NCBI GenBank assembly: GCA_030538675.1 | Contig: JAUNTM010000014.1 | Span: 1-37,417, forward strand | From: Capnocytophaga sp. | GTDB lineage: Bacteria; Bacteroidota; Bacteroidia; Flavobacteriales; Flavobacteriaceae | DNA: 37,417 nt | Direction of reading: 5' to 3' | In this document: positions 4,831-35,441 of the stretch, in pieces | Position numbering within the stretch: position 1 is the stretch's first letter | Layout: every line of letters starts with the position of its first letter | The notes under the pieces: model-generated | Database searches by the model: none | What the model was told of the DNA's origin: nothing | What the model saw: only the letters and a program-made list of their open reading frames with translations | Program-made: the position numbers and the translations under genes

Positions 4831-4862
4831 TTTGTTTTATTTATTTTTGTTTTATACTTTTG
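4831..4862 (+). promoter_or_regulatory. promoter of SusC/D unit 1
   Basis: A -33 TTTG (4831-4834) and a -7 TACTTTTG (4855-4862), 20 nt apart, match the Bacteroidota promoter (TTTG-N19/20-TAnnTTTG). This is the best two-box promoter in the window. It lies 47 nt ahead of the ATG at 4910 and supports that start over any internal one. Confidence 0.75.
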
Positions 4863-4909: not shown

Positions 4910-7900
4910 ATGAAAAAGCAAACCACACGGAAGGTTTGGGAGTTTTATATTAAAACTTTCAGCCTTGCACTACTGCTTTTAGGTAGTGTTAAAATCTATG
5001 CGGGGGGGGTAAATTAGATAATCTATCTAACGAATCGGCTCTTCAACAAGAAACCAACATCACGGGAACGGTAACAGACGCTTCAGGCGTGCCGTTGCCC
5101 GGAGTAACCATCCTCATCAAAAATTCCACCAAAGGAACTTCTACTGACTTTGACGGAAATTTTGAAATCAACGCCAAAAGTACCGATGTACTTGTATTTA
5201 CCTACATTGGTTTTGCCAAGCGGGAAGTAACCGTCGGCAGAAACCGTACTCTCAAAATCACTTTAAACGAAGACACCCAGCAGCTTGATGATGTGGTGGT
5301 GGTCGGTTTTGGGCAGCAGAAAAAGGAAAGTTTGGTCGTTTCCATCAGTTCGGTCAAGCCGAAAGACATTTCCACGCCCACCCGTAACCTTACCAATGCC
5401 TTAGCCGGACAGGTTGCCGGACTTATCGCCGTGCAGCGTTCGGGTGAGCCGGGCTATGACAACGCCGAGTTTTGGATACGCGGTATCAGCACGTTTGCCG
5501 GAGGTTCCAAGCCGTTGGTGCTTGTAGACGGCGTTCCCCGTTCTATTAATGACGTAGAACCCGACGAAATCGAAACCTTTTCTATCTTGAAAGATGCTGC
5601 CGCAACCGCCGTGTACGGGGCACAAGGGGCGAACGGCGTAGTGCTTGTAACCACCAAACGCGGTAAAGTAGAAAAAGCCCGTATCTCATTCCGCACCGAG
5701 CATACGGTATCCATGCCCACGCGTCTGCCTAAGTTCGTAGGTTCGGCAGACTATATGTCGCTTTTTAACGAAGCCCGTAGGAACGACGGCGAAGTACCGC
5801 AATTTTCGGAAGAATTAATCCAAAAATACCGCGACAATGCCGACCCCGACCTCTATCCCAGTACCAATTGGATTGACGAAATGCTCGATGATTTCACGAC
5901 TAACCAACGCTACTCGCTCAACGCACAAGGCGGAACGGAAAGAGCCCGCTATTTCGTGTCGGGAGCATTGTACCGCGAAACCGGGATTTTCAAAAACAAG
6001 CCCGACGAAAAATACGATACCAGTATCGGGCTGAAAAGGTTCAACCTCCGTTCCAATGTAGATATTGATATTACGGAAAGTACAGCCGTTTCGGTAGACC
6101 TTTCGGGACAGTATATGGTCAATTCCTACCCCGGTACGGGAACTCCGCAGATATTCAGAGCCATGCTCATCACGCCGCCCCACACGTTTCCGGCGGTGTA
6201 CAGTGACGGTACGATTTCCACCTACCTGCAAGAGCGGGATTCCAATATGCGCAATCCGTACAACCAACTGATGAATTCTGGTTATGCCAAAGAATGGCGT
6301 ACCGCAATACAGTCAAAAGTAACGTTAAACCAAAAATTAGATGCCATTACCAAAGGACTGAAATACAGAGCGTTCATTAGTTTTGACTTTGATAATAATT
6401 TTCTCAGCCGCCGCACGTTCAATCCCACCCGTTACCATGCCACGGGGCGTGATGCCGACGGTAAGTTGATATTCACGCAAGTGGTATCGGGTACGCCCGA
6501 CCTCTCGAACCATAGTCCGTCTTCAGAAGCCAACAAAAAAATCTATTTTGAAACGGCATTTGACTACGCCCGTAATTTCGGCGACCACAGAGTAACAGGG
6601 ATGACCCTCTTCATGACAAGAGATTCGCAAGCACATAACAATGCCCTGCCTTTCCGCAGCATGGGGGCTGTCGGGCGTGTTACTTACGGGTATGCCGACC
6701 GCTACTTTGTAGAAGCCAACTTCGGGTACACAGGTTCTGAAAAATTTGCCAAAGGCTACCGCTTCGGGTTTTTCCCGGCGGTGGGCGTAGCGTATTTTCT
6801 TTCCAATGAAGACTTTTATCCGCAAGGGCTGAAAGACTATGTGTCAAAAGTGAAAATCAGGGCTTCGCTCGGGCGTACCGGAAATGATGACACAGGCGGT
6901 TCTCGCTTTTTGTACCGTCCTACGTTTGTTACCAATGCCGGAGGTTTTAACCAAGGTATTGGCGACAACGGAGCATTGAACGGCATCGGTAACGGTATCT
7001 ATGAAGACCGTCTTGCTTCGCCACATCTCACGTGGGAAATTGAAACCAAACGCAACTTTGGTGTGGAACTCGGCTTCTGGAAAAACCAGATACAGCTCGT
7101 AGCCGACTACTTTGATACCCAGCGTGACGGCATCCTTTTGCAGCGTCGTACCCTGCCGCAAGTGAGCGGTTTCCGTTCCGACCCTTGGGAAAACTACGGT
7201 AAAGTACGAAACCGGGGAATTGACGCATCGCTTGACGGACAAACCAAACTCGGCGATTTTACCGTCGGGCTTCGCTCCACATTTACCTTCGCCCGTAACA
7301 AAGTCATCGAATATGACGAACTGCCCACACGCTACCCTTGGATGGCGGTTACAGGAACGCGGATTTCCGAAAATACGCTCTACATTGCCGACAGGCTCTA
7401 CACCGAAGATGATTTCACATCGGTAACGAACCCCAACGGCACAAAAACGTATTCATTGAACCCCAACCTGCCGCAACCTACGCTCGGCGGTATTTTAGGT
7501 CCCGGCGATATTAAATATGTAGACGTGAACGGCGATGGCGTGATTGACAATTATGACCGTGTACGCGGTGTAGGAAATCCTGCCGTGCCGGAAATTGTGT
7601 ACGGTTTCGGATTTTCGGTACAGTACAAAAGGGTGTACATCAATGCCTTTTTCCAAGGCGTAGCGAATACGTCCGTACAGCTTGGCGGCAATGAAGCACA
7701 AGGCTGGTATCCGTTCGCTTGGGGCGTTGACCAGTCCAACTACCGTGAGTTTGCCCTCAGCCGCTGGCAAGAAGGAGCCGATAACAGCAACGTACTGATG
7801 CCCCGGCTGCACTCAAGCAATGCCAATAATGCGAACAACCGCGTGAACAGTACGTGGTGGCAACGCAACGGCTCATTCCTAAGGTTTAAAAATGCTGAAA

Positions 7901-8091
7901 TAGGCTGGAACGTACCCGAAACAATTCTTCAAAAAGCCAAAATCAATTCGGCAAGAATTTATCTGATGGGCTACAACCTCGCCGTTTGGGACGACATCAA
8001 GTATTTTGACCCCGAATCCGGAAATGCAAATGCCGGATTAAATTATCCGCTGCCGCGAAATTTCGCTTTCGGCGTTGACCTGTCTTTTTAA
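4910..8091 (+). CDS. SusC-family TonB-dependent receptor 1, frameshifted (phase OFF) at a poly-G tract
   Basis: An outer-membrane glycan importer energised by TonB. Translation from the ATG at 4910 gives a signal-peptide-like start (MKKQTTRKVWEF, then hydrophobic FSLALLLLGSV, ending IYA at residue 31), then meets eight Gs at 5002-5009 and stops at TAG 5015-5017 after 35 codons. The remaining frame is open to 8091: CarboxypepD_reg-like domain (TGTVTDASGVPLPG onward), TonB box DDVVVVGFG, plug domain (LVLVDGVP, ILKDAAATAVYGAQG), then a 22-strand-type barrel ending in a terminal aromatic, VDLSF. One added G (or two lost) gives a continuous 1060-aa protein. No upstream ATG exists in the downstream frame: a TAA at 4990-4992 closes it. 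There is no STN signalling domain. SusD1 follows after 24 nt. Confidence 0.9.
5002..5009 (+). repeat. homopolymeric (G)8 tract in susC1, likely phase-variation switch
   Basis: Eight consecutive Gs begin in the third position of codon 31. With eight, the frame closes at codon 36; with nine the codons read GCG GGG GGG GGT and the receptor frame is open. The tract is longer than any G run in the non-receptor genes here (6-7). Confidence 0.85.
5014..5030 (+). other. inverted repeat 4 nt after the susC1 G tract
   Basis: TTAGATA (5014-5020), loop ATC, TATCTAA (5024-5030): a perfect 7-bp stem. It starts 4 nt after the last G, exactly as in susC2, and contains the OFF-frame TAG stop. Being AT-rich it is weak, but its position could promote polymerase slippage or recoding. 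Confidence 0.6.
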
Positions 8092-8115
8092 CCAACTCTT
8101 TAAAAACAACGTATC

Positions 8116-9945
8116 ATGAAAAAGATAAAATATTCATTCTGGATGTTTATTTCCTTATTGACAATGGGTTCGTGCAGCGATTTCTTGGACGTATCCGATG
8201 AAATGGCAGACGGGCTTCAGAATATCGACCAAATATTTGACAACGTAGACTATACCCGGCGGTATTATGCCAACGTATTTACGGCAGTTCCGGATTATTC
8301 GGGAGTGGTCAACTCCGGAGGATTTAAAAACCCGTGGATGGGAATGACCGATGAGATTATTTCTACTTACGGCGATGTAGGGGATTATTCCATTTCGGAC
8401 AAAAACGAAGAAAACGTAAAATTCCACCGCTGGGGCGATGCGTACAAACTTATCCGCCAAGCGAATATTTTCCTTGCCAACGTAAAACCGCTCGTGGCGG
8501 AAGGTTCGCAAGCCGACGTATTGCGTCCCGCCGAAGTTGCCGAAATGAAGGCAAATGTCCGCTTTATGCGTGCTTTCTACCACTATATGCTTTTTGAGCA
8601 ATACGGTTCTATCCAATTGGTGAAAGACCGTATTTTTGCAAGTTCCGATGATATGGACATTCCGCGTGCACCGCTCGATGAGGTCATCAATTATATTGAC
8701 GAAGAACTGCTCGCCGTATCGCAAGAGCTTCGGCAAGCACCTATTGAAGACGAGCAATACCGTGCGTGGCCAACCAAAGGCGTTGCCCTTGCCGTGCGTG
8801 CCAAACTCTGGATGTACGCCGCAAGTCCGCTTTTCAACGGCGGTTACCGCGAAGCCTTGTCGGTAATGACCCCTGCGGGCGATAACGGAGCGATGGTACG
8901 TATGTATCCCGACCATGATGCCTCAAAATGGCAGAAAGCCAAAAATGCCGTCAAGGATTTTATCGATTATGCCGAAGCCGGAAATTACGAACTTTATTCG
9001 ACAGGCAACCCAGCGACCGATGTGTACGAACTTTTCCAGAAATACACCAAAGAAATCGTTTGGGCTACGGCGACCACCAATTGGGGCGGTATGGACGGCG
9101 ATGCTTTTGACCGTCGTGCCACGCCGAGAAGCGAGCAGAACGGACTGGGTTCAATAGCGGTTTTCCAAGAATTGGTGGACGATTTTTATATGGCAGACGG
9201 ATTGCCCATTGCCGACACCGATTTCTTGCCGGCATCACCCGATTATACTGAAAATGGCTTCTCCGCTATGAATGGAGTGCAGGTGTCAAATATGTGGGTG
9301 GGCAGAGAGCCTCGTTTTTACAACACCGTTTTCTTTCAAGGGAGAAAATGGCATATCACCAATAACGTTATCGAGTTCCATCTCGGTTCGCCCAATGACA
9401 TGACGGGGCAGCACACCCGCACAGGATATATGCTTTACAAGCGTTTCAACCGCCAAGTGCACAAGCGTACTCCGGGCGTAACCAGCCGTTTCCGTCCGTC
9501 AATTATTTTCCGTTTGGCGGATTTCCATTTGCTGTACGCCGAAGTGCTGAACGAAACCGACCCTGCCGATACCAACGTTTTGGTCTATCTGAACAAAGTG
9601 CGTACCCGTGCCGGACTTCCTGCCATCGAAACGCTGAATCCTGCCGTTGCAGGCAACCAAGATTTGCAGCGAAAAGCCATCCGCAGAGAACGCCGCATTG
9701 AACTTGCCACCGAAGGACAGCGCTATTTTGATGTCCGCCGATGGATGATTGCCGATACCGATGAAGGACAGCAAAACAGAGATTTGCACGGAATGAATAT
9801 GGGAGCGGCATTGCCCGGATTCTTCACCCGAACCAGAGTGCAACGCAACGTGTTCAACCGTAAAATGTACCTCTATCCCATACCGTTCTACGAACTGCAA
9901 AAATCAAAAGGAGCAGTAGTGCAAAACCCCGGTTGGAGAATATAA
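8116..9945 (+). CDS. SusD/RagB-family glycan-binding lipoprotein 1
   Basis: The surface lid of the SusC1 importer, binding glycan and closing over the barrel. The 609-aa protein starts with a lipoprotein signal ending LLTMGSC, so Cys20 is the lipidated residue, followed by SDFLDVSDE. The N-terminal half has the TPR-like SusD pattern (EMKANVRFMRAFYHYMLFEQYG) and the C-terminal half ends with the family signature RRERRIELATEGQRYFDVRRW followed by YPIPFYELQKSKGAVVQNPGW. Length is in the upper normal range for the family. It begins 24 nt after susC1 and is probably on the same transcript, so an OFF susC1 could reduce its expression by polarity. The ligand cannot be read from sequence. Confidence 0.95.
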   Translation: MKKIKYSFWMFISLLTMGSCSDFLDVSDEMADGLQNIDQIFDNVDYTRRYYANVFTAVPDYSGVVNSGGFKNPWMGMTDEIISTYGDVGDYSISDKNEENVKFHRWGDAYKLIRQANIFLANVKPLVAEGSQADVLRPAEVAEMKANVRFMRAFYHYMLFEQYGSIQLVKDRIFASSDDMDIPRAPLDEVINYIDEELLAVSQELRQAPIEDEQYRAWPTKGVALAVRAKLWMYAASPLFNGGYREALSVMTPAGDNGAMVRMYPDHDASKWQKAKNAVKDFIDYAEAGNYELYSTGNPATDVYELFQKYTKEIVWATATTNWGGMDGDAFDRRATPRSEQNGLGSIAVFQELVDDFYMADGLPIADTDFLPASPDYTENGFSAMNGVQVSNMWVGREPRFYNTVFFQGRKWHITNNVIEFHLGSPNDMTGQHTRTGYMLYKRFNRQVHKRTPGVTSRFRPSIIFRLADFHLLYAEVLNETDPADTNVLVYLNKVRTRAGLPAIETLNPAVAGNQDLQRKAIRRERRIELATEGQRYFDVRRWMIADTDEGQQNRDLHGMNMGAALPGFFTRTRVQRNVFNRKMYLYPIPFYELQKSKGAVVQNPGWRI

Positions 9946-9959
9946 ACCTTTTAAATTTG

Positions 9960-11306
9960 ATGAAAATGAAATATTCTATAGTATTTTTTGCAATTTGTGC
10001 CGCATTTTTGTACGGATGCGACAAGAATGATACGGCGGAAGGAAAAGCTCCGGGCGTGCTGTACCTTTCAGAGAATGGCGTGAACAAACTAACGTCGTAT
10101 GATGTGGGCGAAACCTTTGAAAAAGAAATCTGGGTAGGCAAAGGCGGTCTGTCAAGCGCCGCCATTCCGTACCGTGTGGAAGTCGCCGCACAGTGGCTCG
10201 ATTCGGTCAATGTTGCCAACGGCACCTCATTCAGCCTGTTGCCTGCCGACAGCTATGAGTTGGTTGCCGAAGCCGAAGCCATCGGAGGAATTTCGGGCGA
10301 AATAAAAACCGTACTCCGCTATGACCCCGACAAAATATTGTCGCATTCGGGCAACCAATACGATGCGGAAACCTTTATGCTGCCGTTGCAATTGACATCA
10401 ACGCAGGCAGGAGTAGTCAATCCCGCCAAGAGAAGTGTTTTTTATACCTTCGCAGTGTCTGACCCGATACTTCAGATTATGGACGAAGGCATTGTTACCG
10501 TAAATTTGTCGGGAACAGATGCGATTGATTTGAAAACGACATTAGGCGTTCCGTTTTCCAATAAATGGGATATTACCGCTACGATTGGGCATAAACAGGA
10601 GACTATTGATGCGTACAACACGACCAACAATTCGTTTTTTGCACTGTTGCCTTCAACGAGCTATTCGGGCGAAGACACTGCTGTATTGGCTTCGGGAGAG
10701 AACAGCAAAGAAGTGGTTTATACCGTCAATGCTTCGCAGATAGCCCCCGGCAATTACATTCTGCCCGTACAGATTTCGGCAATCACATCGTCATTAAACG
10801 GCACGGTTACGGACAATATCAAGTTCAATGCCGAAAAAAGCAAGTTGTTTATTTTCTCCAAAATGGGTGAAAAACTCTCCAAAACAGGTTGGACAATCAC
10901 GTCTGTCAATTCCGAAGAAAAAACAGGCGAAGGAACAAATAACGGACAGGCAAAACACATGATTGACGATAATCTCAACACGTTTTGGCACAGCAGATGG
11001 CAAGGCGGAGATGACCCGTTGCCTTTTGAAATTGTGGTGGATATGGGAGCGGAACATTTAGTATCGCAGATAGAAATCATTCCGAGAAACAATGCCAATA
11101 ACGGTATTACGCACCTGCGGTTTGAAACCAGTACCGACGGCACTACGTGGGAATACGTAGGAAGGTTTGAGTTTGTGTATTCGGCAGCTTCATTGGTATA
11201 TGCCGTAAAAGCGAGCAATTGCCGCTACATCAAAGTCATTGTTCCCGAAGACGGGGCAAAATCAAGAGTTGCCGCCATAAGGGAAATGAACGCCTACGGA
11301 AGGTAA
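9960..11306 (+). CDS. DUF1735 plus F5/8 type C (discoidin-like) surface lipoprotein
   Basis: A likely surface glycan-binding protein of unit 1. The 448-aa product from ATG 9960 begins MKMKYSIVFF and has a lipobox ending LYGC (Cys20). The open frame reaches back to a TTG at 9933 inside susD1, but the ATG at 9960 gives a clean lipoprotein signal. Residues ~30-290 contain two repeats of the DUF1735/BT_3987 type, each with a hydrophobic core and a phrase such as NGTSFSLLPADSYEL or NNSFFALLPSTSYSG. Residues ~305-448 form an F5/8 type C jelly roll: GWTITSVNSEE, then ...HMIDDNLNTFWHSRW, then EIVVDMG and the closing NCRYIKVIVPE...VAAIREMNAYGR. It carries no catalytic domain. It lies 14 nt after susD1, so it completes the operon. 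Confidence 0.88.
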   Translation: MKMKYSIVFFAICAAFLYGCDKNDTAEGKAPGVLYLSENGVNKLTSYDVGETFEKEIWVGKGGLSSAAIPYRVEVAAQWLDSVNVANGTSFSLLPADSYELVAEAEAIGGISGEIKTVLRYDPDKILSHSGNQYDAETFMLPLQLTSTQAGVVNPAKRSVFYTFAVSDPILQIMDEGIVTVNLSGTDAIDLKTTLGVPFSNKWDITATIGHKQETIDAYNTTNNSFFALLPSTSYSGEDTAVLASGENSKEVVYTVNASQIAPGNYILPVQISAITSSLNGTVTDNIKFNAEKSKLFIFSKMGEKLSKTGWTITSVNSEEKTGEGTNNGQAKHMIDDNLNTFWHSRWQGGDDPLPFEIVVDMGAEHLVSQIEIIPRNNANNGITHLRFETSTDGTTWEYVGRFEFVYSAASLVYAVKASNCRYIKVIVPEDGAKSRVAAIREMNAYGR

Positions 11307-11309
11307 TTT

Positions 11310-11379
11310 AACGTGAGGTTGGTTTGATAAGTAATTGAATAACAGCATCTTACTTTTGTTCTTATGTCGAACTCACGTT
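11310..11379. repeat. MITE-like inverted-repeat element, 70-bp internally deleted copy
   Basis: The ends are AACGTGAG and CTCACGTT. Read on this strand it matches the reverse complement of the 142-bp element at 30511-30652 at both ends: the TTGAATAxCAGCATCTTACTTTTG block is almost identical and the right end (TCGAACTCACGTT) is identical. About 70 bp of the centre, the GGAGAGG-type core, is missing. It is inserted between the lipoprotein stop codon and that gene's terminator. Confidence 0.78.
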
Positions 11380-11402
11380 AGTTAATGTTTTTACGTAAGC
11401 TC

Positions 11403-11438
11403 AAAGTCGTGCTTTTTCCGAAGAAAAAGCACGACTTT
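11403..11438 (+). terminator. intrinsic terminator of unit 1
   Basis: AAAGTCGTGCTTTTTC (11403-11418) pairs perfectly over 16 bp with 11423-11438 around a CGAA loop. It is A/T-rich at the base, so it may act on both strands. The terminator after susD2 has the same architecture. Confidence 0.88.
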
Positions 11439-11501
11439 ATTGTAAAAAACCGCTTGCTGTACAAAAGTCAGGCTGGAAACTCCCACAAGTCGTATTACTA
11501 C

Positions 11502-11563
11502 TACCTTTGTAGATAATCAAAAGAGATGGATAAAAAAGTGCTTTTACTGTAGTAAGCATTTTT
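11502..11563 (+). ncRNA. possible short leader RNA or mini-ORF upstream of unit 2
   Basis: A TACCTTTG box (11502-11509) is followed by ATG at 11526, an 8-codon frame MDKKVLLL ending at TAG 11550-11552, and an imperfect hairpin (11539-11558) running into TTTTT. Promoter box, short transcript and hairpin plus T-run are in the right order for a ~50-nt RNA. No -33 element is evident and all parts are weak, so this is tentative. Confidence 0.25.
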
Positions 11564-11689
11564 CTTAGAAAATGCAGAAAAACAACATCCCGCCAAGCCT
11601 GAAAAGCAGTTTTGTTTCAAAGTTGCGTTTTTCAAACGGAAGATAAATATTAAAATAGGATTTGCAGGTGTTTATTTAAAAAAAATAAA

Positions 11690-11697
11690 TATCTTTG
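11690..11697 (+). promoter_or_regulatory. promoter -7 box of SusC/D unit 2
   Basis: TATCTTTG matches TAnnTTTG exactly and lies 41 nt before the ATG of susC2. The nearest upstream TTTG (11661-11664) is 25 nt away, wider than the usual spacing. Confidence 0.6.
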
Positions 11698-11738
11698 CCC
11701 TACATTTAACCAATTACATAACCAAAACCTAAAGTAAT

Positions 11739-14700
11739 ATGATTCGACTTTGTTTGAAAAGATGCGAAAAAAACGCATTTGTAATCGTATGGCTGCTTTT
11801 ATGTGTACCGATGAGTATACATAAAAATTATGGGGGGGGGTATTTTGATAGAGAAAATCTATCAACCACTTCGCTTTTGCAGCAACATACTCTTTCCGGA
11901 ACAGTAACCGATGCACAAGGAATGCCACTTCCGGGAGTGAGCGTTGTCGTAAAAGGAACGACACGAGGCGTAGCAACAGACTTCAACGGACGCTACGAAA
12001 TAGCTGTTTCGGCTTCTGAAATTCTTGAATTTTCATACTTAGGTTACAAAACCGTAGAAGTAACCGTAGGTACATCGGCAACACTGAACGTAACCTTACA
12101 AGAAGATTCCCAACAACTCGATGAAGTAGTGGTTGTCGGCTTCGGGACGCAGAGAAAAGTAAACCTCACAGGATCAGTGGCTACGGTCAATACCGAACTG
12201 TTGGATTCCCGTCCCGTATCACAATTGGGGCAGGCATTGCAAGGAGCGGTGCCGGGGCTGAACCTTAATGTGGGGTCGCTCGGCGGACAGCTCGGGCAGA
12301 CAATGAACATCAATGTCCGGGGTGCAGGAACTATCGGGCAGGGGTCGGGAGCTTCGCCGCTCATTCTCATCGACGGTATCGAAGGGAATATGCAGAACCT
12401 CAACCCGAATGACATCGCCAGTATTTCGGTACTGAAAGATGCTGCTTCATCGGCAATCTACGGCTCAAGAGCGGCATTCGGTGTTATCTTGATTACCACC
12501 AAACGGGGCTTGGAAGGCAAAATGACCCTCACGTACAGCAGCAATCTCCGCTACAGCGGGCCTGCCAATCTTCCCAACCAACTTGACTCGTGGCGTTTTG
12601 CCAATTACTTCAACGAAGCCGCCGCCAACCAAGGACAAGGAGCTATTTTTGATGACGATACGCTCAACCGCATCCAGCAATATATGGCAGGCGAAATCAC
12701 CACCACCACCATTCCCAACGGACGCAATTGGAATTTCCACCAAAGAGCCAATGACAACGTGAACTGGTGGAAAACCCACTTCGGGTGGAGCTGGGCAAGT
12801 GAGCACAACGTATCGCTCAGAGGCGGTTCGGAACGGCTCAAATACTACGCTTCCGCCAATTTGCTTGACCAAGACGGAAATCTTACCTACGGGAAAGACA
12901 CTTACAAGCGTGTCAATGCAATGCTGCGTATCGATACCAAAATCAACGATTATCTAGAGTTTAACGTCGATACGAAGTTTATCCGCTTTACGCTCGATAA
13001 TCCGTTGCTGGTAGAGTTGCCCGGCAATTCGGGTTTGTTCTATCACAACATCGTGCAAATGTGGCCGATGATGCCGTTCAAAGACCCCAACGGGTACTAT
13101 ATGCGTAACGGACGGTTGGCTTCAATGACCAGCGACAGCCGTGCCGTAACCAATAATGATAATTTGTACGCACAAGGGCAATTCATCTTGCGTCCGCTGA
13201 AAAACTGGAACATCTACGCACAGGCAGGAACGAGGATTGTCAACCAGAACAAGCACTCGCAATTGGTTCCTGTATTTGAATACGACATTGACGGAAACCC
13301 GCTCCCGATGCTCTATGCGTTGGGCGTTTCGGCATTTCCGGCAGGAGCTACTTTTGCCGAAGACGAGTACGCAAACACCAATTTCTATACCACGAGCCTC
13401 TATTCCGATTATTCGTTCGGCATCGACCGGCACGATTTCAAAATAATGCTCGGTATGAATACGGAAGAAAGCAAAAGCAAAGGTTTGGGTGCCCGCCGCC
13501 CCGATTTGATTACACCTTTGGTACCGCAAATTAGTGCGGCTACGGGCGAAGACAAAATACAGAGTTCGTATCTGCAAAATTGGGCAACTGCCGGCGTATT
13601 CGGGCGGTTGAACTATTCGTTTGCCGACAAATATATGATAGAAGCCAATTTGCGTTACGACGGTTCTTCACGCTTCCTCCGCAACCAACGGTGGACGTGG
13701 CTTCCTTCTTTTTCCGTAGGGTGGAACGTGGCGAACGAGGCTTTCTTTGAGCCGCTTGCGCAATATGTCAATACGCTGAAACCTCGTTTTTCGTGGGGAA
13801 CGCTCGGCAACCAAAATACAAGTTCGCTCTATCCGTTCTATTTGACGCAGGGCGTGAGTGCCAACGGCGGTTCGTGGTTAGTGGGCGGAAGCCGTCCTAC
13901 CATTGCCTATGCTCCGGGGGTTATCAGCGATTTCCTTACGTGGGAAAAAGTGTATAACACCAATTACGGGGTTGATGTGGGAGCATTTAACAGCCGCCTG
14001 CAGTTGAGTTTCGATTATTTTGTCCGTACTACGGAAGATATGGTAGGCCCTGCCGCCGAAGTGGGAGCGGCGTACGGTATCGGGTTGCCACCGACGAACA
14101 ATGCCAAACTCCGCAACAAAGGCTGGGAATTGCAAATCGACTGGAACGACCAAATAGGCGATTTCAAATATTCATTGGGTTTCAACCTTTCGGACAACCG
14201 TGTACGCGTATTGAGCTACCCGAATCCGTCCAATTCGCTCGGAACGTATTATAACGGACAAGAATTGGGCGAAATCTGGGGGTACACCACGCAAGGCATC
14301 GCCAAAACCGACCAAGAAATGACCGACTGGCTGGCACACACAAGCCAACAACGGCTTTCGGGCGTGTGGCAGGCAGGCGATATTATGTACGTAGATACGA
14401 ACGGCGACGGCGAAATCAGCAGTGGGGCAAACACGCTGGACGATCCGGGCGACCGCAGCATCATCGGAAATTCCAATCCGCGATTCCGCTTCGGGTTCAA
14501 TCTCGGAGCTGCCTACAAAGGCTTTGACCTCGGTATTTTCCTGCAAGGTGTGATGAAACGCGATTACTGGCTCGGCGGGTCTTATTTTTGGGGAACGTCC
14601 AGTGGCGGTATGTGGCAGGCAACCGGATTTGAAGAACATCTCGATTATTTCCGTCCGGAAGGTACTACGTCCGTATTCGGGGCAAATGTAGATGCGTACT

Positions 14701-14999
14701 ATCCGCGTCCGTATATGGGCGGGCGGGCTGCCAAAAACGAGCAGGTGCAAACCCGCTATCTGCAAAATGCCGCTTATTTGCGGGTGAAAAACATACAGCT
14801 CGGGTACAGCCTTCCGCAGGAAGTGCTTGCCAAAGTGGGCATCGACAAACTGCGGGTATATGTGAGTGGCGAAAACCTGATGACCTTCTCAAAAGTCGCT
14901 AAAATGTACGACCCCGAAGTGTTGGACGGAGGCTTTGGTTCGGGCAAATCATATCCGCTTTCGCAAACCATTTCGTTTGGCGTAAACCTTTCGCTTTAA
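11739..14999 (+). CDS. SusC-family TonB-dependent receptor 2, in frame (phase ON)
   Basis: An outer-membrane glycan importer of 1086 aa. A basic, hydrophobic N-terminus (residues ~1-27) serves as signal peptide, then Gly32-Gly33-Gly34 are encoded by nine Gs at 11832-11840. Next come a CarboxypepD_reg-like domain (~51-122), the TonB box DEVVVVGFG (~128-136), the plug domain (~140-250, with LILIDGIEG and VLKDAASSAIYGSRA) and the beta barrel ending in FGVNLSL. There is no STN domain, so it is not an ECF/anti-sigma transducer. A gain of one G would stop translation within three codons of the tract; a loss of one would stop it about 25 codons later. SusD2 follows after 19 nt. The glycan is probably the substrate of the GH20 and sulfatase downstream. 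Confidence 0.95.
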   Translation: MIRLCLKRCEKNAFVIVWLLLCVPMSIHKNYGGGYFDRENLSTTSLLQQHTLSGTVTDAQGMPLPGVSVVVKGTTRGVATDFNGRYEIAVSASEILEFSYLGYKTVEVTVGTSATLNVTLQEDSQQLDEVVVVGFGTQRKVNLTGSVATVNTELLDSRPVSQLGQALQGAVPGLNLNVGSLGGQLGQTMNINVRGAGTIGQGSGASPLILIDGIEGNMQNLNPNDIASISVLKDAASSAIYGSRAAFGVILITTKRGLEGKMTLTYSSNLRYSGPANLPNQLDSWRFANYFNEAAANQGQGAIFDDDTLNRIQQYMAGEITTTTIPNGRNWNFHQRANDNVNWWKTHFGWSWASEHNVSLRGGSERLKYYASANLLDQDGNLTYGKDTYKRVNAMLRIDTKINDYLEFNVDTKFIRFTLDNPLLVELPGNSGLFYHNIVQMWPMMPFKDPNGYYMRNGRLASMTSDSRAVTNNDNLYAQGQFILRPLKNWNIYAQAGTRIVNQNKHSQLVPVFEYDIDGNPLPMLYALGVSAFPAGATFAEDEYANTNFYTTSLYSDYSFGIDRHDFKIMLGMNTEESKSKGLGARRPDLITPLVPQISAATGEDKIQSSYLQNWATAGVFGRLNYSFADKYMIEANLRYDGSSRFLRNQRWTWLPSFSVGWNVANEAFFEPLAQYVNTLKPRFSWGTLGNQNTSSLYPFYLTQGVSANGGSWLVGGSRPTIAYAPGVISDFLTWEKVYNTNYGVDVGAFNSRLQLSFDYFVRTTEDMVGPAAEVGAAYGIGLPPTNNAKLRNKGWELQIDWNDQIGDFKYSLGFNLSDNRVRVLSYPNPSNSLGTYYNGQELGEIWGYTTQGIAKTDQEMTDWLAHTSQQRLSGVWQAGDIMYVDTNGDGEISSGANTLDDPGDRSIIGNSNPRFRFGFNLGAAYKGFDLGIFLQGVMKRDYWLGGSYFWGTSSGGMWQATGFEEHLDYFRPEGTTSVFGANVDAYYPRPYMGGRAAKNEQVQTRYLQNAAYLRVKNIQLGYSLPQEVLAKVGIDKLRVYVSGENLMTFSKVAKMYDPEVLDGGFGSGKSYPLSQTISFGVNLSL
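11832..11840 (+). repeat. homopolymeric (G)9 tract in susC2, likely phase-variation switch
   Basis: Nine Gs fill codons 32-34 exactly, keeping the receptor in frame. In the ON form of susC1 the Gly-Gly-Gly also falls at residues 32-34, so the switch sits at the same place in both proteins. Confidence 0.82.
11845..11865 (+). other. inverted repeat 4 nt after the susC2 G tract
   Basis: TTGATAGA (11845-11852), loop GAAAA, TCTATCAA (11858-11865): a perfect 8-bp stem. Spacing from the tract is 4 nt, the same as in susC1, although stem and loop sequences differ. Confidence 0.6.
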
Positions 15000-15018: not shown

Positions 15019-16980
15019 ATGAAAAAGAATATCATACATTCCATACTACTATTGGCGGGCTTACTGACGGCTTCGTGCAATAATTTTTTAGACAGAGAGC
15101 CGTTGGATTCCGTTCCTTTGGAGCGTTATTTGTGGTCTGAGTCCGATTTGGCGGCTTATTCCATACGCCAATACGGTTTGTTCCCCACCCACGCCGGATT
15201 TGGATTGGGAACGTTCGCTTCGGACAATAACAGCGACAACCAAGCCGGCGTAGGCGAAAACGGACTGTTCGTACCCAAACGTTGGAGAGTCGGGCAAAGT
15301 GGCGGTGCGTGGGGCTTCGGCAGCATCCGCGACGTGAACTATTTCATCAATACCGTCCAGCCCCGATTGGACAATGGAGAACTTACAGGAAATGCCGCCA
15401 ATGTGCGCCATTATTTGGGTGAAATGTATTTCTTCCGTGCGTACATCTATTTTTCAAAATTAGAATCATTGGGTGATTTTCCTATCTTAAAAGAATGGAT
15501 TACCGAAGATTACGATGTGGTGCGTGAAAACAGCAAACGCCGTCCCCGCAATGAAGTGGCTCGGTTTATCTTGGAAGATTTGGACAAAGCCATTTCGTAT
15601 CTGAATACGGCAGCCCCGCAATCCAACCGTTTGAACAAAAATGCGGCATTGCTTTTCAAAAGCCGGGTGGCACTTTTTGAAGGTACGTGGCTGAAATACC
15701 ACAAAGGAACTGCCCGCGTGCCGGGAGGTCCGGGTTGGCCGGGAGCAGGAAAGGATTATTTGAGCGGTTTTTCGATAAACATCGACAGCGAAATCAACTT
15801 TTTCCTCACGGAAGCCAAAGAAGCCGCACGACAGGTTGCCGATAACGTGGCTCTTTCTCCAAATTACGAACAGATGTTCAACAGCATTACGCTCAACGTT
15901 CCCGAAGTATTGCTTTGGAGACAGTACGACGCCAACGTAACCCCGATGGTCAACCATTATGTTGTCGGTTACATACAGCGCAACGGCGGCGGCGGTACCG
16001 GGTTTACACGCAGTTTTGTAGAGTCGATATTGATGAGCAACGGACTGCCGATTTACGCTGCGGCATCGGGCTATCAAGGCGATGAAACGTTTGCCAAAGT
16101 ATTCGCCGGAAGGGATAACCGCATGAAATACAACATTCTCAACGAAGGCGACCTGCTCACGACACGGGCTTCGTTTACGGAATACATCGTTAACGGCAAC
16201 GGATATTTTTACCGTCCGCCACTCACCGAAAACGGCGAAAACCGCTCAACCACAGGCTATTCCATCAAAAAAGGCTTGATGACCGACCCTGCCCAAGGAC
16301 CGACCCTGCCTTCCACTACGGCAAGCGTGGTATTCCGTGCCGCCGAAGCCTATCTCAATTATATGGAAGCTGATTTTGAGCTTTCCAACACCCTCGACGC
16401 CAATAGTTTAAGATATTGGAAAGCACTTCGCACACGTTCGGGCGTAAGCGATGACGTAAACGCTACGATTGCCGCCACCGACCTTACGAAAGAAAACGAT
16501 TTGGCGGTCTATTCGGGCAGTACGCCGGTAGATGCCACGCTGTACAACATCCGCAGGGAAAGACGCATCGAACTGGCTGCCGAAGGCTCACGTTTGAGAG
16601 ATTTACGCCGTTGGAGGGCTCTCGACAAAATGGACGGTTACATCGTGGAAGGATTTAATCTTTGGGACGAAAATTATCTAAAATACGAAGCAGACGCAAC
16701 GTTGGGGCTTCCGAAGATAGAACTCAAAGAAACAGGCGTTGCCAATCCGAGCGTTTCGGCAAGGACAGACAGCAAATACCTGCGTCCGTACCGTATCAAC
16801 ACGTCCAATGAGGCGTTTGACGGCTACAAATTCAATCCCGTGAAATACCTTGACCCGATTGCTTTTGACCATTTCAGGCTGACAACCGACACGCCCGGCA
16901 ATACCGATTACACCACCTCGACCATTTACCAAAATCCGGGTTGGAAAATCGAAACCAATTCCTTGCCCGAAGGCGATTAG
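15019..16980 (+). CDS. SusD/RagB-family glycan-binding lipoprotein 2
   Basis: Partner of SusC2, 653 aa, long for the family. The lipoprotein signal ends LLTASC (Cys20), followed by NNFLDREPLDSVP, the classical SusD opening. The TPR-like region contains GEMYFFRAYIYFSKLESLGDFP and the C-terminal region has RRERRIELAAEGSRLRDLRRW and the closing YQNPGWKIE. The motif RAAEAYLNYMEADFEL corresponds to the conserved segment that lines the SusC interface in known complexes. It begins 19 nt after susC2 and is followed by a strong terminator, so the two genes form their own transcript. Confidence 0.95.
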   Translation: MKKNIIHSILLLAGLLTASCNNFLDREPLDSVPLERYLWSESDLAAYSIRQYGLFPTHAGFGLGTFASDNNSDNQAGVGENGLFVPKRWRVGQSGGAWGFGSIRDVNYFINTVQPRLDNGELTGNAANVRHYLGEMYFFRAYIYFSKLESLGDFPILKEWITEDYDVVRENSKRRPRNEVARFILEDLDKAISYLNTAAPQSNRLNKNAALLFKSRVALFEGTWLKYHKGTARVPGGPGWPGAGKDYLSGFSINIDSEINFFLTEAKEAARQVADNVALSPNYEQMFNSITLNVPEVLLWRQYDANVTPMVNHYVVGYIQRNGGGGTGFTRSFVESILMSNGLPIYAAASGYQGDETFAKVFAGRDNRMKYNILNEGDLLTTRASFTEYIVNGNGYFYRPPLTENGENRSTTGYSIKKGLMTDPAQGPTLPSTTASVVFRAAEAYLNYMEADFELSNTLDANSLRYWKALRTRSGVSDDVNATIAATDLTKENDLAVYSGSTPVDATLYNIRRERRIELAAEGSRLRDLRRWRALDKMDGYIVEGFNLWDENYLKYEADATLGLPKIELKETGVANPSVSARTDSKYLRPYRINTSNEAFDGYKFNPVKYLDPIAFDHFRLTTDTPGNTDYTTSTIYQNPGWKIETNSLPEGD

Positions 16981-17050: not shown

Positions 17051-17095
17051 ACTGTTTTGTTATTTCTGAATTCCTCCAATCTTCTAAAAAATGCG

Positions 17096-17103
17096 TATCT
17101 TTG
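17096..17103 (+). promoter_or_regulatory. promoter -7 box of the GH20-sulfatase transcript
   Basis: TATCTTTG matches TAnnTTTG and lies 28 nt before the ATG at 17132, just downstream of the susD2 terminator. This implies that the enzymes are transcribed separately from the receptor pair. Confidence 0.6.
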
Positions 17104-17131
17104 TACGAACCAACCCATACCAACTTTAAAA

Positions 17132-18733
17132 ATGAAAAAAAACACCGTATTTCTGTTTTTTTTGATATTTTCCAACGCCATAGCCCAGCATAATCTCTCG
17201 GCGTTATTGCCGTACCCGAACCAAATCGAACCGCAAAAAGGCATTTTGAAAATCACTAAAAAAGAAAAAATCCACGCTGACGGCGGATTGGAGTTCGCTT
17301 CTTCCGAATTGAAAACTATTTTCCAAAAACATTTTGGTTTTGAACCGATTTCGTCCGAAAAAGGAAATATCAGGCTAAAAATCAATCCGCAGTTGGAAAA
17401 CGAAGAGCAGTACGTGCTTGACATCCGTCCGCAAGGGATTAGCATCGAAGGGAAAACGGCTGCCGGCGTGCTTTACGGAATTTATACGTTGGAGCAGATT
17501 TTAATAGGCGATACGGCACAAACAGCCCTGCAACGCATTCAATCCGTGCGGATTAACGACCGTCCTGCCTATCCGTTTCGGGCGTTGATGCTTGACCCGG
17601 CACGGCATTTTCTTCCGCTTGACGGCGTAAAAAAATACATCGCCCAAATGGCGAAATTCAAGTATAACACCCTGCAAATCCACCTCACGGACGACCAAGG
17701 CTGGCGTATCGAAATCAAAAGCCGTCCGCAGCTTACCGAAAAAGGCAACACACCGACAAAAAATGGCGAACGGAATTTTTATACGCAAGAAGAATTAACA
17801 GAACTCATTGATTTTTCAGTACTTAGAAACGTAGAAATCATTCCCGAAATTGATGTGCCCGGACACACGGCAGCTCTTTTAGCCGCGTATCCCGACCTGC
17901 GTTGCGATTTCTTGAAAGATTCCGTTTTTGTCATCGGGAAGACGGATAACGTGATGCTTTCGGCGGCAAATCCGGAGGTATATGCACTGTTGGACGATGT
18001 TATCCGCGAGGTGTCGGCTATCTTTCCGTCGAAGAAAATACATCTCGGCGGTGATGAATCCGCCATCGGGCGAAATTGGGCAAAAAGCGATGAAAATCTG
18101 AAATTGATGTCCGAAAAAGGCTACACGAAACCCGAAGAATTGATGAATATTTTCTTCGGAAGCGTACTCGCTTCGGTCAAAAAATACGGAATGCACGCCA
18201 TTTTATGGTGCGAATTGGACAATATCCGTATGCCGGCAAACCGCTATCTGTTTGATTATCCGAAAGATGTAACCCTCGTAACGTGGCGGTACGGGCTTAC
18301 GCCCAAGTGCATCGAACTCACGGGGCTGTCGGGCAACAACCTTATTCTCGCACCGGGCGAATACGCCTATCTGGACTATCCGCAGTACAAAAACGACCTG
18401 CCGGAATACAACAATTGGGGAATGCCCACGACCACGCTCGAAAAAACCTATTCGTTTGACCCGACGTATGGTCTTTCTACGAAAGAAACAGCTCATATTC
18501 AAGGGGTTATGGGAACGCTCTGGGGTGAGGCGATTAAGGATATCAACCGTGCCAATTATATGACCTATCCTCGCGGACTGGCTCTTGCCGAAGCCGGGTG
18601 GACAGAAAAACAGTTCCGAAATTGGGACTCGTTCCGTCAAAGGATTTATCCGAATTTAACAGAATTGATGAAAAACGGCACATCATTCCGAGTGCCTTTT
18701 GAAATAGCAGAAATCAAACAAAACCAACCTTAA
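17132..18733 (+). CDS. GH20 beta-N-acetylhexosaminidase
   Basis: An exo-acting glycoside hydrolase that releases terminal GlcNAc or GalNAc by substrate-assisted catalysis. I start it at ATG 17132, which gives a clean signal peptide (MKKNTVFLFFLIFSNAIA, then QHN); the open frame extends upstream to 17057 through the promoter box and is not credible there. The product is 533 aa. Residues ~25-140 match the GH20 N-terminal domain (GISIEGKTAAGVLYGIYTLEQ). The catalytic barrel follows, with the RALMLDPARHF segment near 150, LQIHLTDDQGWRIEI near 181, PEIDVPGHTAAL near 238 and the catalytic pair Asp308-Glu309 in IHLGGDES. There is no lipobox, so it is periplasmic or secreted. It is 6 nt upstream of the sulfatase, pointing to joint action on sulfated HexNAc. 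Confidence 0.95.
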   Translation: MKKNTVFLFFLIFSNAIAQHNLSALLPYPNQIEPQKGILKITKKEKIHADGGLEFASSELKTIFQKHFGFEPISSEKGNIRLKINPQLENEEQYVLDIRPQGISIEGKTAAGVLYGIYTLEQILIGDTAQTALQRIQSVRINDRPAYPFRALMLDPARHFLPLDGVKKYIAQMAKFKYNTLQIHLTDDQGWRIEIKSRPQLTEKGNTPTKNGERNFYTQEELTELIDFSVLRNVEIIPEIDVPGHTAALLAAYPDLRCDFLKDSVFVIGKTDNVMLSAANPEVYALLDDVIREVSAIFPSKKIHLGGDESAIGRNWAKSDENLKLMSEKGYTKPEELMNIFFGSVLASVKKYGMHAILWCELDNIRMPANRYLFDYPKDVTLVTWRYGLTPKCIELTGLSGNNLILAPGEYAYLDYPQYKNDLPEYNNWGMPTTTLEKTYSFDPTYGLSTKETAHIQGVMGTLWGEAIKDINRANYMTYPRGLALAEAGWTEKQFRNWDSFRQRIYPNLTELMKNGTSFRVPFEIAEIKQNQP

Positions 18734-18739
18734 ATAGTT

Positions 18740-20194
18740 ATGAATGCAAAACGAACCAAAAACATTTTTTTGTGGTTTTTACTCTCGGTAGTTTTTCCGT
18801 TGAAAGCACAAGAGCAGCCGCCCAATTTGGTCTTCATTATGGCTGACCAATGGCGTGCCGATGCCGTTGGCTATATGGGCAAAGAACCGGTACTGACACC
18901 AAATTTAGATAAATTATCTACCGAAGGCATTACCTTTACCGATGCCGTGAGCAATACGCCTGTGTGTTCGCCTGCACGAGCTTCGTTGATGACGGGAATG
19001 TATCCGCATGCAAACGGCGTAACGACCAATTGTAACTCAGCATCAGCACCTTACGGCGTAGAACTTTCGCCCGATGCCGTTACGTGGTCGGATATTTTGG
19101 CGGAAAACGGCTATGATTTGGCGTATTTGGGCAAATGGCATTTGGATTCGCCTCACCGGCCGTTTGTCGATACCTATAATAATCGGGGGAAAGTGGCGTG
19201 GAACGAATGGACACCGCCCGAAAGACGGCACGGTTTCCGCCATTGGATAGCTTACGGAACGTATGATTACCACCTCAAACCGATGTATTGGAACACCGAC
19301 GGTGGTAGAGATGATTTTTATTATGTAGATGTATGGAGTCCTGAATATGAGGCTGATAAGGCTATCGAATACATTGAAAATAAGGGGGGTACGCTACGTC
19401 CTGCCGAGAAGCCTTTCGCCTTGGTGGTGTCGATGAATCCGCCGCATACGGGCTATGATCTCGTCCCCGATACCTACAAGGAAATCTACAAAAATCTCGA
19501 TACGGAAAACCTTGCGGCACAGTTTCCCAACATCCCCCGAAAAGGAACGGAAATGGGGGATTATTTCCGACAAAATATTGCGGATTATTACGCCTGCATC
19601 ACGGGAGTAGATGAACATATCGGTCGGATTATGAGGCAGTTGGAAGCTCAAGGTTTGGCGGAAAACACGATTGTGGTATTCACTTCCGACCACGGCATAC
19701 AGATGGGAGCTCAAGAACTCGCCGGAAAGGATATTTATTTTGACGAATCAATGCGTATTCCGTTGATAATCAAATATCCTGCTAAATTAAAACCCCGACA
19801 GACCGATTTGCAGATGAGTTTTTCCGATTTTTACGGTACGCTTCTTTCATTAATGGATTTAGGAGATAAAATACCTACGGAAGTGCAGAGTTTCGACCTT
19901 TCGGAAATGCTCGTCAATCCGAAAAAAGAACGCCCCGTAACCCAACCGTATTATTATGTAAATCTTGACAACCACCGCAACGGCTACCGGGGGCTGCGTG
20001 ACGGACGGTTTACTTTTGCCGTTCACGCAAAGGACGGAAAAATTGACGAAATCATCTTGCACGACCGCCAAAACGACCCTTTTCAATTGGAAAATATCGC
20101 TTTGAAATATCCTAATAAAATAAAAAGATATACTAAAAATCTCAAAAAACTGCTCGCTACAACAAACGACCCTTTTTTAGAAAATAAGTTTTAA
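18740..20194 (+). CDS. S1-family arylsulfatase-type glycan sulfatase
   Basis: Removes sulfate esters from sugars, using a formylglycine made from a Cys. The 484-aa protein has a signal peptide (residues ~1-23, ending LKAQ), then the metal-site motif NLVFIMADQWRADAVG (~29-44) and the sulfatase signature CSPARASLMTG, with Cys76 the residue to be converted to formylglycine and Arg80 conserved. Later motifs YLGKWHLD (Lys and His), FTSDHGIQMG and a C-terminal GYRGLRDGRFTF are typical of S1 sulfatases acting on amino sugars or uronates. No sulfatase-maturating radical-SAM enzyme lies in the window, so one must be elsewhere if the enzyme is active. Start ATG 18740 is 6 nt after the GH20 stop. The subfamily, and hence the sulfated position, is not clear from sequence alone. 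Confidence 0.93.
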   Translation: MNAKRTKNIFLWFLLSVVFPLKAQEQPPNLVFIMADQWRADAVGYMGKEPVLTPNLDKLSTEGITFTDAVSNTPVCSPARASLMTGMYPHANGVTTNCNSASAPYGVELSPDAVTWSDILAENGYDLAYLGKWHLDSPHRPFVDTYNNRGKVAWNEWTPPERRHGFRHWIAYGTYDYHLKPMYWNTDGGRDDFYYVDVWSPEYEADKAIEYIENKGGTLRPAEKPFALVVSMNPPHTGYDLVPDTYKEIYKNLDTENLAAQFPNIPRKGTEMGDYFRQNIADYYACITGVDEHIGRIMRQLEAQGLAENTIVVFTSDHGIQMGAQELAGKDIYFDESMRIPLIIKYPAKLKPRQTDLQMSFSDFYGTLLSLMDLGDKIPTEVQSFDLSEMLVNPKKERPVTQPYYYVNLDNHRNGYRGLRDGRFTFAVHAKDGKIDEIILHDRQNDPFQLENIALKYPNKIKRYTKNLKKLLATTNDPFLENKF

Positions 20195-32283: not shown

Positions 32284-35200
32284 TTATAATTTTATCTGAA
32301 CATTCATTCCGTAGGTTCTCGTAGAAGGCAAGGAACCTCCTTCAAGTCCTTGTATATTACCACTTCCGTAAGAAGTGTTTTCGGGGTCCATTCCTTTCCA
32401 GTCAAGCCCGGTTACCCACAGGTTGCGTCCGAATGCGGAGAACACGACTTCCTTCACGTGTTTGCCGGGTTGTATGGGCAGTTTGTACGATAGAGTAACC
32501 TCTCTGAGTTTCAAGTATGAGGCATCGAATACGTTCTGTGCATCTACTCTCGAGTAATAGTCTGCTCCCCAAGTGATGGCATCGAGCGCCGTCGTATTGG
32601 CAGAACCGTCGGCATAGACAGCATCGAGGACAATCCCGTTTTCGCGAACTCCATCGGCTGCCGTAGCCTCAAGCATCCCCGAATACATCCCCCACATGTG
32701 CGAGGTGGAGTAGTAGGAGCCTCCTTTTTGCATGTCGAACAATACCGATAGCGAGGCGTTCTTGTAGGTGAATGTATTTCTCAGGCCCGTATTGTAGTCA
32801 GGAATGATTGAACCGAGGGCTTTAATGGGCGATGTTACATAACGTCCGCTTGCGTCAACGATTCGTTTGCCGTTATCGTGGTACATGAAATCGCTACCGT
32901 ATATTTGCCCGTAAGGTTCTCCTACTTTAGCATACAGAGTAGCCTTGAAAGGGGCATTCGATATCTGATATTCGTCGGTTTCTGCCAAGCTCAGCAATTT
33001 GTTGTTGTTCTTGGTGAAATTCCATGTAACATTCCATTGGAAATCGTCTGTGCGTATGGGAGCTACGCTGAGTGTCAGCTCAATACCTTTGTTTTCCAAA
33101 CTTCCGCCGTTGAGGTATTTGTTGATGTATCCGGTGGCAACGTCAATAGAGAGCGGCATAATCAAGTCATCCGTTATGGTTTCGTAGTACGTAACATCTA
33201 CCCCCACTCTTCGGGAGAATAAGCTCAGTTCGAGCCCTATCTCTTTGGTTGTTTTCATTTCGGGCAGAAGGTCTGTCTTGTTGAAGATATCCGGATTCGA
33301 ATATCTGGGGCTGCTCAAGAAAGCGGCTCTTACGTCGGAATACGTTTCCAAGCGGTAAGGGTCGGTATCGTTTCCTACCTGTGCCCAGCCCAAGCGGAGC
33401 TTACCGAAGTTGAGCCATGGCTGTTTCACCAATGAAGAGAACACGAAACTTCCGGTTACCGACGGATAGAAAACGGATTTGGTTACGGTTGAGAACCAAT
33501 CGTTGCGGGCAGTTCCTTCCAAAAAGAGGATGTTTTTGTATCCTAACGACACCATACCGAATACGCTATTGGTACGTCGCCACAGTTGGTAATCTTCGCC
33601 TTTCGGTTGTTCAACGCTATTGGCTAAATTGTAATAATTGGGCAAAGCAAGACCGCCTACGGTAGTTCCGTACACATAGTCGTACCGGCGCTCTCTGCGG
33701 GAAATTCCGGCGAAAGCGTTCAGGCTTAGGTCTTCCGAGAGTACTTTGTCAAAATGCAAGCGCCCTTCATAGGTAAAGTCCGTCAGCGACCGCTTGATGT
33801 CTGTAAAAGAAGGCAGTGCCTGCGAGCCTATGGCAACCCGCTCCCATATTCGGGAAGCGTACGTATCGCCGTACACCTTACCCACGGCGTACAATTCGGG
33901 GAGGAAATGATAGGTAATCCCTGCGTTGCCAAAGAATCGGTTACGCTTGTCCTCTGAAGTATTTTCGTTGATTACCCAATACGGGTTGTCGGAATACACG
34001 GGAGTAGGGTCATCCCATGAGGTTCGGTTCCAGGAACGCTGTGCACCGGTCGATGCTATTTTGTAATCCCTCAACTTTACCATGTCCAATTGCCGCTGTC
34101 CCCATTGCCAGAATTTCTGTGCTACGGAATTACTTCCATATCCTTGCTCGGGGCGGTTGTAGCCGCGGGTGTATACGTAATTGAACGAGCCGTCCAAGCG
34201 GAGCTTTTCAGTGAACTTGGAATTGAAGTTGAAGTTCAGATTGCTCCTGTCCAATTTGGAGTTAGGGATAACGCCTTCGGTTTGGTTATTGGCAAATGAA
34301 AGCCTCAAATTCGTATCTTGCACAGACCTTGAGAAAGATACAGAGTTAGAGTACGTTACTCCGGTACGGAAGAATTTGTCCACGTCGTTCTCCGGACTTA
34401 CCCACGGCACCGTCTTCATATAGTCTTCGGGAAATTCGGGGTCAAATGCGTTCCAAGGCAAGTACATGGTACCATCATAGCGAGGCCCCCAACTCTCGTC
34501 ATAAGCATATTCGGCGAGATTGTAGGTGGTACCGTTGATGACTGCCGTTTCAAAAGTATTAGAACTCCCTCCTCCATACAGTTTTTGCAGGTTCGGGTAG
34601 ATGTAGATAGACTCAAAAGTAACGCCCGATTTTACATCAATATCGGTGCGTCCGTTCTTTCCGGACTTGGTGGTGTAGAGGATAACCCCATTACCGCCCC
34701 GGCTTCCGTACAAAGCCGCTGCCGGACCACCTCGGAGTACTGTTACCGACTCGATATCGTCAGGATTGATATCTGCCGAAGCATCTCCATAATCCCGACC
34801 GCCGGCACCTCGTTGGGTGTTGGTATCGTTATAGTTACCGTTGTCAAGAGGGACGCCGTCTACCACAATAAGCGGACGGTTCTCGCCAGTTACCGAGCCT
34901 ACACCGCGAAGAACGATGCGCGTAGACCCACCCATGCTTGAGGGTGAAGTGATTTGCAGTCCTGCCACATTTCCCGAAAGGGCATTTAAGGCATTTTGTT
35001 GTCCCGCTTGGGAAATACTCTCTCCGGTTACGCTCTGTGCCGCATACCCGATAGACTGTTTATCACGCGTTACCCCCAGAGCCGTTACAACGACTTCCCC
35101 GAGCTGCTGTGCATCTTCTTCCAGTACCACATTGATTTCCAGCGTGTTACCCCCCTCCATGGGAATAGTACGTTCTGTAGTTTTCATCCCTAAGTACGAA

Positions 35201-35415: not shown

Positions 35416-35441
35416 AGTCATTTATTTAAATTAGTCTATCG

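Follow-up and report, generated by a model that had tools for sequence, protein, structure and literature searches.

Poly-G tracts in the front ends of SusC receptor genes as probable phase-variation switches in Capnocytophaga

The haemoglobin receptors HmbR and HpuAB of Neisseria meningitidis undergo phase switching through poly-G tracts, as described in the passages of the source used here (PMC3786947). In Bacteroides, surface structures phase-vary by DNA inversion, again according to excerpts of the cited work (PMC12118408, PMC4747536), and in Capnocytophaga canimorsus the Gpd complex, in the sections of the report drawn on here, consists of a SusC/SusD pair with surface lipoproteins and feeds on host glycans (PMC3128124). 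Here we describe two neighbouring SusC receptor genes, SusC1 and SusC2, that carry G runs shortly after the signal peptide on a 37,417-nucleotide stretch of Capnocytophaga DNA (the window). The stretch forms contig C113 of a draft genome (2.70 Mb, 179 contigs).

Like HmbR and HpuAB, as portrayed in those passages, the window genes encode outer-membrane nutrient receptors with poly-G runs in the reading frame. The meningococcal receptors are few and their reversible switching has been shown, whereas here ten SusC genes of one genome are concerned, from another family and phylum, and switching is deduced from sequence. With the Bacteroides inversion systems, as far as the excerpts go, the genes would share on/off surface variation in the Bacteroidota, which is linked there to phage survival; those systems rely on recombinases and inverted promoters and affect mostly capsules and lipoproteins, whereas the SusC switch would consist of G runs inside genes. 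A general domain scan found no recombinase among ten window proteins; no search aimed at invertible promoters was made. The Gpd complex is likewise a SusC/SusD pair from the same genus, and its cited passages mention neither a tract nor switching. Among the matches listed from the open-licence literature, no title or abstract opening reports SusC genes switched by G runs, or any phase variation in Capnocytophaga. Slipped-strand phase variation as such is known; what looks new is its occurrence in the SusC receptor family and in this genus, the two fixed sites, and an apparently exchangeable front end.

SusC1 and SusC2 are probably switched on and off at their G runs by slipped-strand phase variation. 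SusC1 (plus strand, as are all features of both loci) starts with an ATG at 4910 and has eight Gs (G8) at 5002-5009, offset 92 nt from the ATG. The tract is out of frame: the segment 4910-5017, which holds the start, signal peptide and tract, ends in the ATG frame at a TAG (5015-5017), and the receptor frame 3' of the tract (5056-8091) stays open to 8091. SusC2 (11739-14999) starts with an ATG at 11739 and has nine Gs at 11832-11840, offset 93 nt, in frame within an open reading frame of 1086 codons. The original prediction had given these lengths, states and offsets, and they were confirmed, as was its statement that the two receptors differ in sequence (29-34% identity across the two main aligned stretches). 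Both are placed in the SusC/RagA family by the TIGR04056 profile (1029 bits for SusC1 and 881 bits for SusC2, curated cut-off 368), and a SusD-like lipoprotein gene (PF07980, PF14322) lies directly 3' of each, at 8116-9945 and 15019-16980. Pattern matching located a TAnnTTTG box 47 nt 5' of the SusC1 ATG (TACTTTTG, 4855-4862) and another 41 nt 5' of the SusC2 ATG (TATCTTTG, 11690-11697). We take this consensus to be the Bacteroidetes -7 promoter element, and the boxes are likely the -7 elements of the two genes. Public protein predictions for the window receptors (P0001, P0121) begin 3' of the tract. The closest relatives of SusC1 outside the window, among the matches listed, are Capnocytophaga proteins with 73% identity; one of the two nearest, P0122, is 100% identical across the compared stretch to the gene at L211, whose genome belongs to the same genus group.

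Ten SusC genes of this genome bear front-end runs of 8 to 10 Gs, at two sites. Site A, behind the signal peptide, is used by SusC1 and SusC2 only. The other eight genes carry their run at site B, around codon 80-110, where the CarboxypepD_reg-like domain ends, typically in the context VGGGN.LTINVLLKED; they lie on contigs C11 (G8), C36 (G9), C44 (G9), C62 (G8), C96 (G8), C99 (G9), C103 (G9) and C178 (G10). The structure model of P0123, the other near relative of SusC1, puts three glycines (85-87) in a loop behind a strand, with a mean confidence of 64 for residues 81-90, so that site B is modelled as a loop at the end of that domain. SusC1, C11 and C178 are out of frame, each with an intact receptor frame of at least 942 codons 3' of the tract, and the other seven genes are in frame. 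On the minus strand of the window, the two SusC genes, predicted to lack a tract, indeed have no G run of seven or more, but the gene at 32284-35421 has six Gs at site B (35150-35155, minus strand), a short relative of the site-B tract. A third G run in the window, at 36089-36095, was considered as a switch and rejected; it falls in an alpha/beta hydrolase gene with the motif HGLMGG and was read as ordinary coding sequence.

The placement of these runs was compared with chance and with codon use. The genome contains 21 runs of at least eight Gs, and 10 of them fall within the first 130 codons of SusC genes, which make up 0.43% of the genome, against 0.09 expected (binomial 8e-19; the 130-codon bound was chosen after the data had been seen). 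An enrichment of G runs in SusC front ends, a test for which had been proposed as a check, is present. In the bodies of 29 examined SusC loci, the longest of 13,083 G runs has six Gs, and among 175 Gly-Gly pairs in SusC bodies one is encoded GGG-GGG and one GGG-GGT; GGG accounts for 445 of 2665 glycine codons. Because GGG-GGG serves only one body pair in 175 and no body run exceeds six, the front-end G runs are not a by-product of glycine demand.

We then extended the census to 20 genomes of the genus, this one included, with one genome per species, so that the comparison is at the species level. In the 19 other genomes, all 66 runs of at least nine Gs were read, together with every run of exactly eight that has TAA behind it (19 runs) and a single additional eight-G run (L214); the 27 tracts found there are a lower bound, the remaining runs of exactly eight lying outside the reading. 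Two of the 66 runs, at contig ends (L138 and L140), were scored as non-SusC. A list of SusC candidates with no more than 24 scored per genome did not enter these counts. The total comes to 37 SusC front-end tracts in 10 of the 20 genomes (10 here and 27 in nine others), 34 at site B and 3 at site A, with lengths of 8, 9, 10 and 12. They account for 22 of the 77 runs of at least nine Gs in the 20 genomes (66 plus 11 in this genome). The third site-A gene (L141 in G004) belongs to another species and has ten Gs behind codon 30, in frame; the objection that no homologue in related genomes would have a tract at this place did not hold. The original proposal of a G-tract switch in SusC genes is well supported and proves wider than the window, while the place that it named turns out to be the minority site (3 of 37). 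Separately, one SusC gene (L179, G015:C47) has nine Gs mid-gene, at codon 274, in frame and outside sites A and B, and was excluded from the 37.

Frame states and lengths vary among these tracts. Thirty-one are in frame and six out of frame (SusC1, C11, C178, L139, L209 and L210); in all six a stop follows within about five codons of the tract, and the receptor frame behind it is open across the stretch read. Length differs at the same place between relatives, single-contig genomes included. As in a contingency locus, a simple repeat near the 5' end of the gene determines the frame through its length (SusC1 out of frame, SusC2 in frame), its placement exceeds what chance and codon use give, and at the species level it recurs at the same place with varied length and in both states.

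Beyond the genus, a specific site-B cassette pattern, which would miss other forms, matched none of 394 other genomes of the family and two of the three genus genomes drawn in that search. Of 240 homologous proteins among the matches listed, 237 have a recognisable TonB box; GGG stands at site B in P0122 and P0123 (both Capnocytophaga) and in P0114, and within the signal peptide in P0105 and P0120. None of the 237 has GGG at site A, the window's own P0001 and P0121 being predicted from starts behind the tract. Around the match start at loci L063-L068 (600 nt upstream to 700 nt downstream), no G run reaches six bases, and a single run of six Cs occurs at L066.

In the proposed mechanism, slippage during DNA copying would change the length of a G run by a base. 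A gained or lost G would shift the frame downstream of the signal peptide, and translation would terminate shortly past the tract, before the plug and barrel, so that an out-of-frame tract would leave no receptor at the surface until a later slip restored the receptor frame. We infer that length changes reversibly within a clone and that out-of-frame alleles yield no working receptor; the SusC1/SusC2 pair alone would then give four receptor combinations. SusC receptors decide the uptake of host and dietary glycans in Bacteroidota, and phages can use such receptors. The benefit of mixed receptor sets might accordingly concern diet, phage or immunity, none of which we favour. If the mechanism is correct, individual cells of one clone would differ in nutrient use, phage sensitivity and surface antigens, and predictions made from one genome would be wrong. 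Gene prediction is already affected, as both window receptors have been predicted from starts behind the tract.

Several observations weigh against switching by these tracts. The window as a whole is not unusual in G7 words (6, against a shuffle mean of 4.11, with 29 of 100 shuffles reaching 6), ordinary genes also bear some G8-G9 runs, and the census found no front-end tract in 10 of the 20 genus genomes. Runs of eight or nine Gs are short for a fast switch. The length variation was seen between species, with one genome for each. The out-of-frame alleles all come from drafts of 80-210 contigs (0 of 7 tracts out of frame in genomes of at most 20 contigs, against 6 of 30 in the rest), so single alleles may be assembly errors.

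This last point speaks for the view that assembly or base-calling error is responsible, that SusC1 is really in frame and on, and that the runs are invariant. Homopolymers are error-prone, and six of six out-of-frame alleles sit in fragmented drafts. Error could account for single alleles, but not for the placement of the runs in SusC front ends or for varied lengths at the same place in genomes that include single-contig ones, and we regard it as unlikely. The three frameshifts in this genome could instead mark SusC1, C11 and C178 as plain pseudogenes, fixed and decaying. Each is out of frame as this would require, yet their receptor frames remain intact for at least 942 codons behind the tract and all six breaks in the genus fall exactly at the tract, which makes decay highly improbable.

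The remaining alternatives leave the DNA unswitched. A glycine loop might have come to use GGG codons by chance, and glycine does seem to suit the loop, since L036 has Gly-Gly-Asn at site B without a tract. Its codons there are GGC GGT, however, and with a single GGG-GGG among the 175 body pairs and 6 of 37 alleles out of frame, this account is barely credible. RNA polymerase slippage on a tract of fixed length could produce a mixture of transcripts and set the receptor level without any switching; such slippage depends on homopolymers, as stated in the part of the source drawn on here (PMC5574713). Against this, the tract lengths vary in the DNA of close relatives, and 31 of 37 in frame is more than a mechanism blind to length would need; we consider it very unlikely. 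Slipped-strand switching at the DNA level is the reading that we retain.

A single receptor line also seems to gain and lose tracts, because the nearest relatives of SusC1 differ from it in site and because L060, a SusC gene of this genome that lacks a tract, shares 74% identity with the tract-bearing L177. In P0122 and P0123 the GGG stands at site B and site A lacks it; SusC1, by contrast, reads VGRNRTL at site B and has its run at site A. Between SusC1 and these relatives the switch seems to have been kept while its place moved.

Front ends were compared in 13 hand-picked pairs, of which four give a sharp pattern and nine are weaker or share bodies. L162 and L163, neighbours in G010, are 96-100% identical in the 300 nt leading up to the tract; the following 100 nt give 90-94%, after which identity falls to 42-74%; further upstream, identity is 44-54% in five intervals and 79% in a sixth. 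L149 (G006) and L213 (G019) are 92-100% identical from -600 to +100 nt around the tract; past this interval the values are 42-68%. In L196/L197 (both G003) and L143/L198 (both G004), identity is 82-92% across the 250 nt upstream of the tract and, past the first 50-100 nt, roughly 50-60% in most intervals. Identity breaks off close to the TonB box in these four pairs. The reverse case is L162 and L198, whose bodies are more alike (75%) than their front ends (50%). In the control, one of 136 non-tract pairs, formed by the minus-strand SusC genes of the window (L051 and L057), also combined similar front ends (78%) with dissimilar bodies (26%), which weakens the link to the tract.

We infer that front ends are exchanged by recombination, in a way not tied to the tract alone, and the exchange looks modular because near-identical tract-bearing front ends stand on very different bodies. 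More tentatively, a portable cassette comprising the signal peptide, the N-terminal domain with its hypermutable G run and the TonB box might be pasted by recombination onto SusC bodies of differing specificity, giving about ten independently flipping receptors per genome and letting more receptors gain the switch by a front-end swap; we rate this possibility somewhat short of even. Were it true, a portable on/off front end would allow a single clone to display as many as about a thousand surface states.

Two further ideas about the site-A pair were rejected. A recent exchange between SusC1 and SusC2 does not account for their equal tract position, as DNA identity in 50-nt intervals ranges over 41-61% upstream and 34-76% downstream of the tract. 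The two linkers look alike, both having LQQ before the domain, and may go back to an old shared type. Four bases 3' of each window tract lies an inverted repeat, of 7 bp in SusC1 (5014-5030) and 8 bp in SusC2 (11845-11865), each with a stem p of 0.005 (200 shuffles). Hairpins are not a general part of the switch, since a stem of at least 6 occurs behind 2 of 34 site-B tracts (mean z -0.26) and 8 of 70 other tracts used for comparison (mean z -0.52), and behind L141, the third tract at site A, not even a stem of five is present.

The remaining genes of the two loci bear on what the receptors may import. The SusC1 locus continues behind its SusD gene with a protein that has a BT_3987-like N-terminal domain and an F5/8 type C domain (9960-11306; PF08522, PF00754). 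The SusC2 locus encodes a glycoside hydrolase family 20 protein (17057-18733; PF00728) and a sulfatase (18740-20194; PF00884), which together with the SusD suggest sulfated, amino-sugar-bearing host glycans as the SusC2 substrate.

G runs outside SusC genes yielded several side observations. In G004 (L144, contig C18, minus strand, 2201-2210), ten Gs lie out of frame between two PF01420 domains of a type I restriction-modification specificity gene, likely a phase-variable restriction system in the same genus. In G015 (L178, contig C34, minus strand, 2201-2217), a run of 17 Gs at codon 415 of 436 of an MBOAT O-acyltransferase gene may possibly vary surface sugar modification. Runs of 9, 13 and 21 Gs (L133, L160 and L172) occur at apparently the same place of one gene in three genus genomes; the two proteins scanned from this set had no Pfam match. 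A TAnnTTTG box follows within 30 nt of the G run in 9 of 64 non-SusC tract entries examined (L152, L159, L164, L166, L167, L180, L199, L204 and L212), so that these runs would lie in the promoter spacer; the genes behind them include an outer-membrane beta-barrel protein (L164, 15 Gs) and a lipocalin-like lipoprotein (L152). Finally, two non-SusC runs of this genome (L217, G000:C135, and L017, G000:C80) are followed by a similar hairpin and cgaactcac, and a stretch like the one behind these runs stands at 11360-11383 of the window (tcttatgtcgaactcacgtta), behind the SusC1 locus; the three are perhaps copies of a repeat element.

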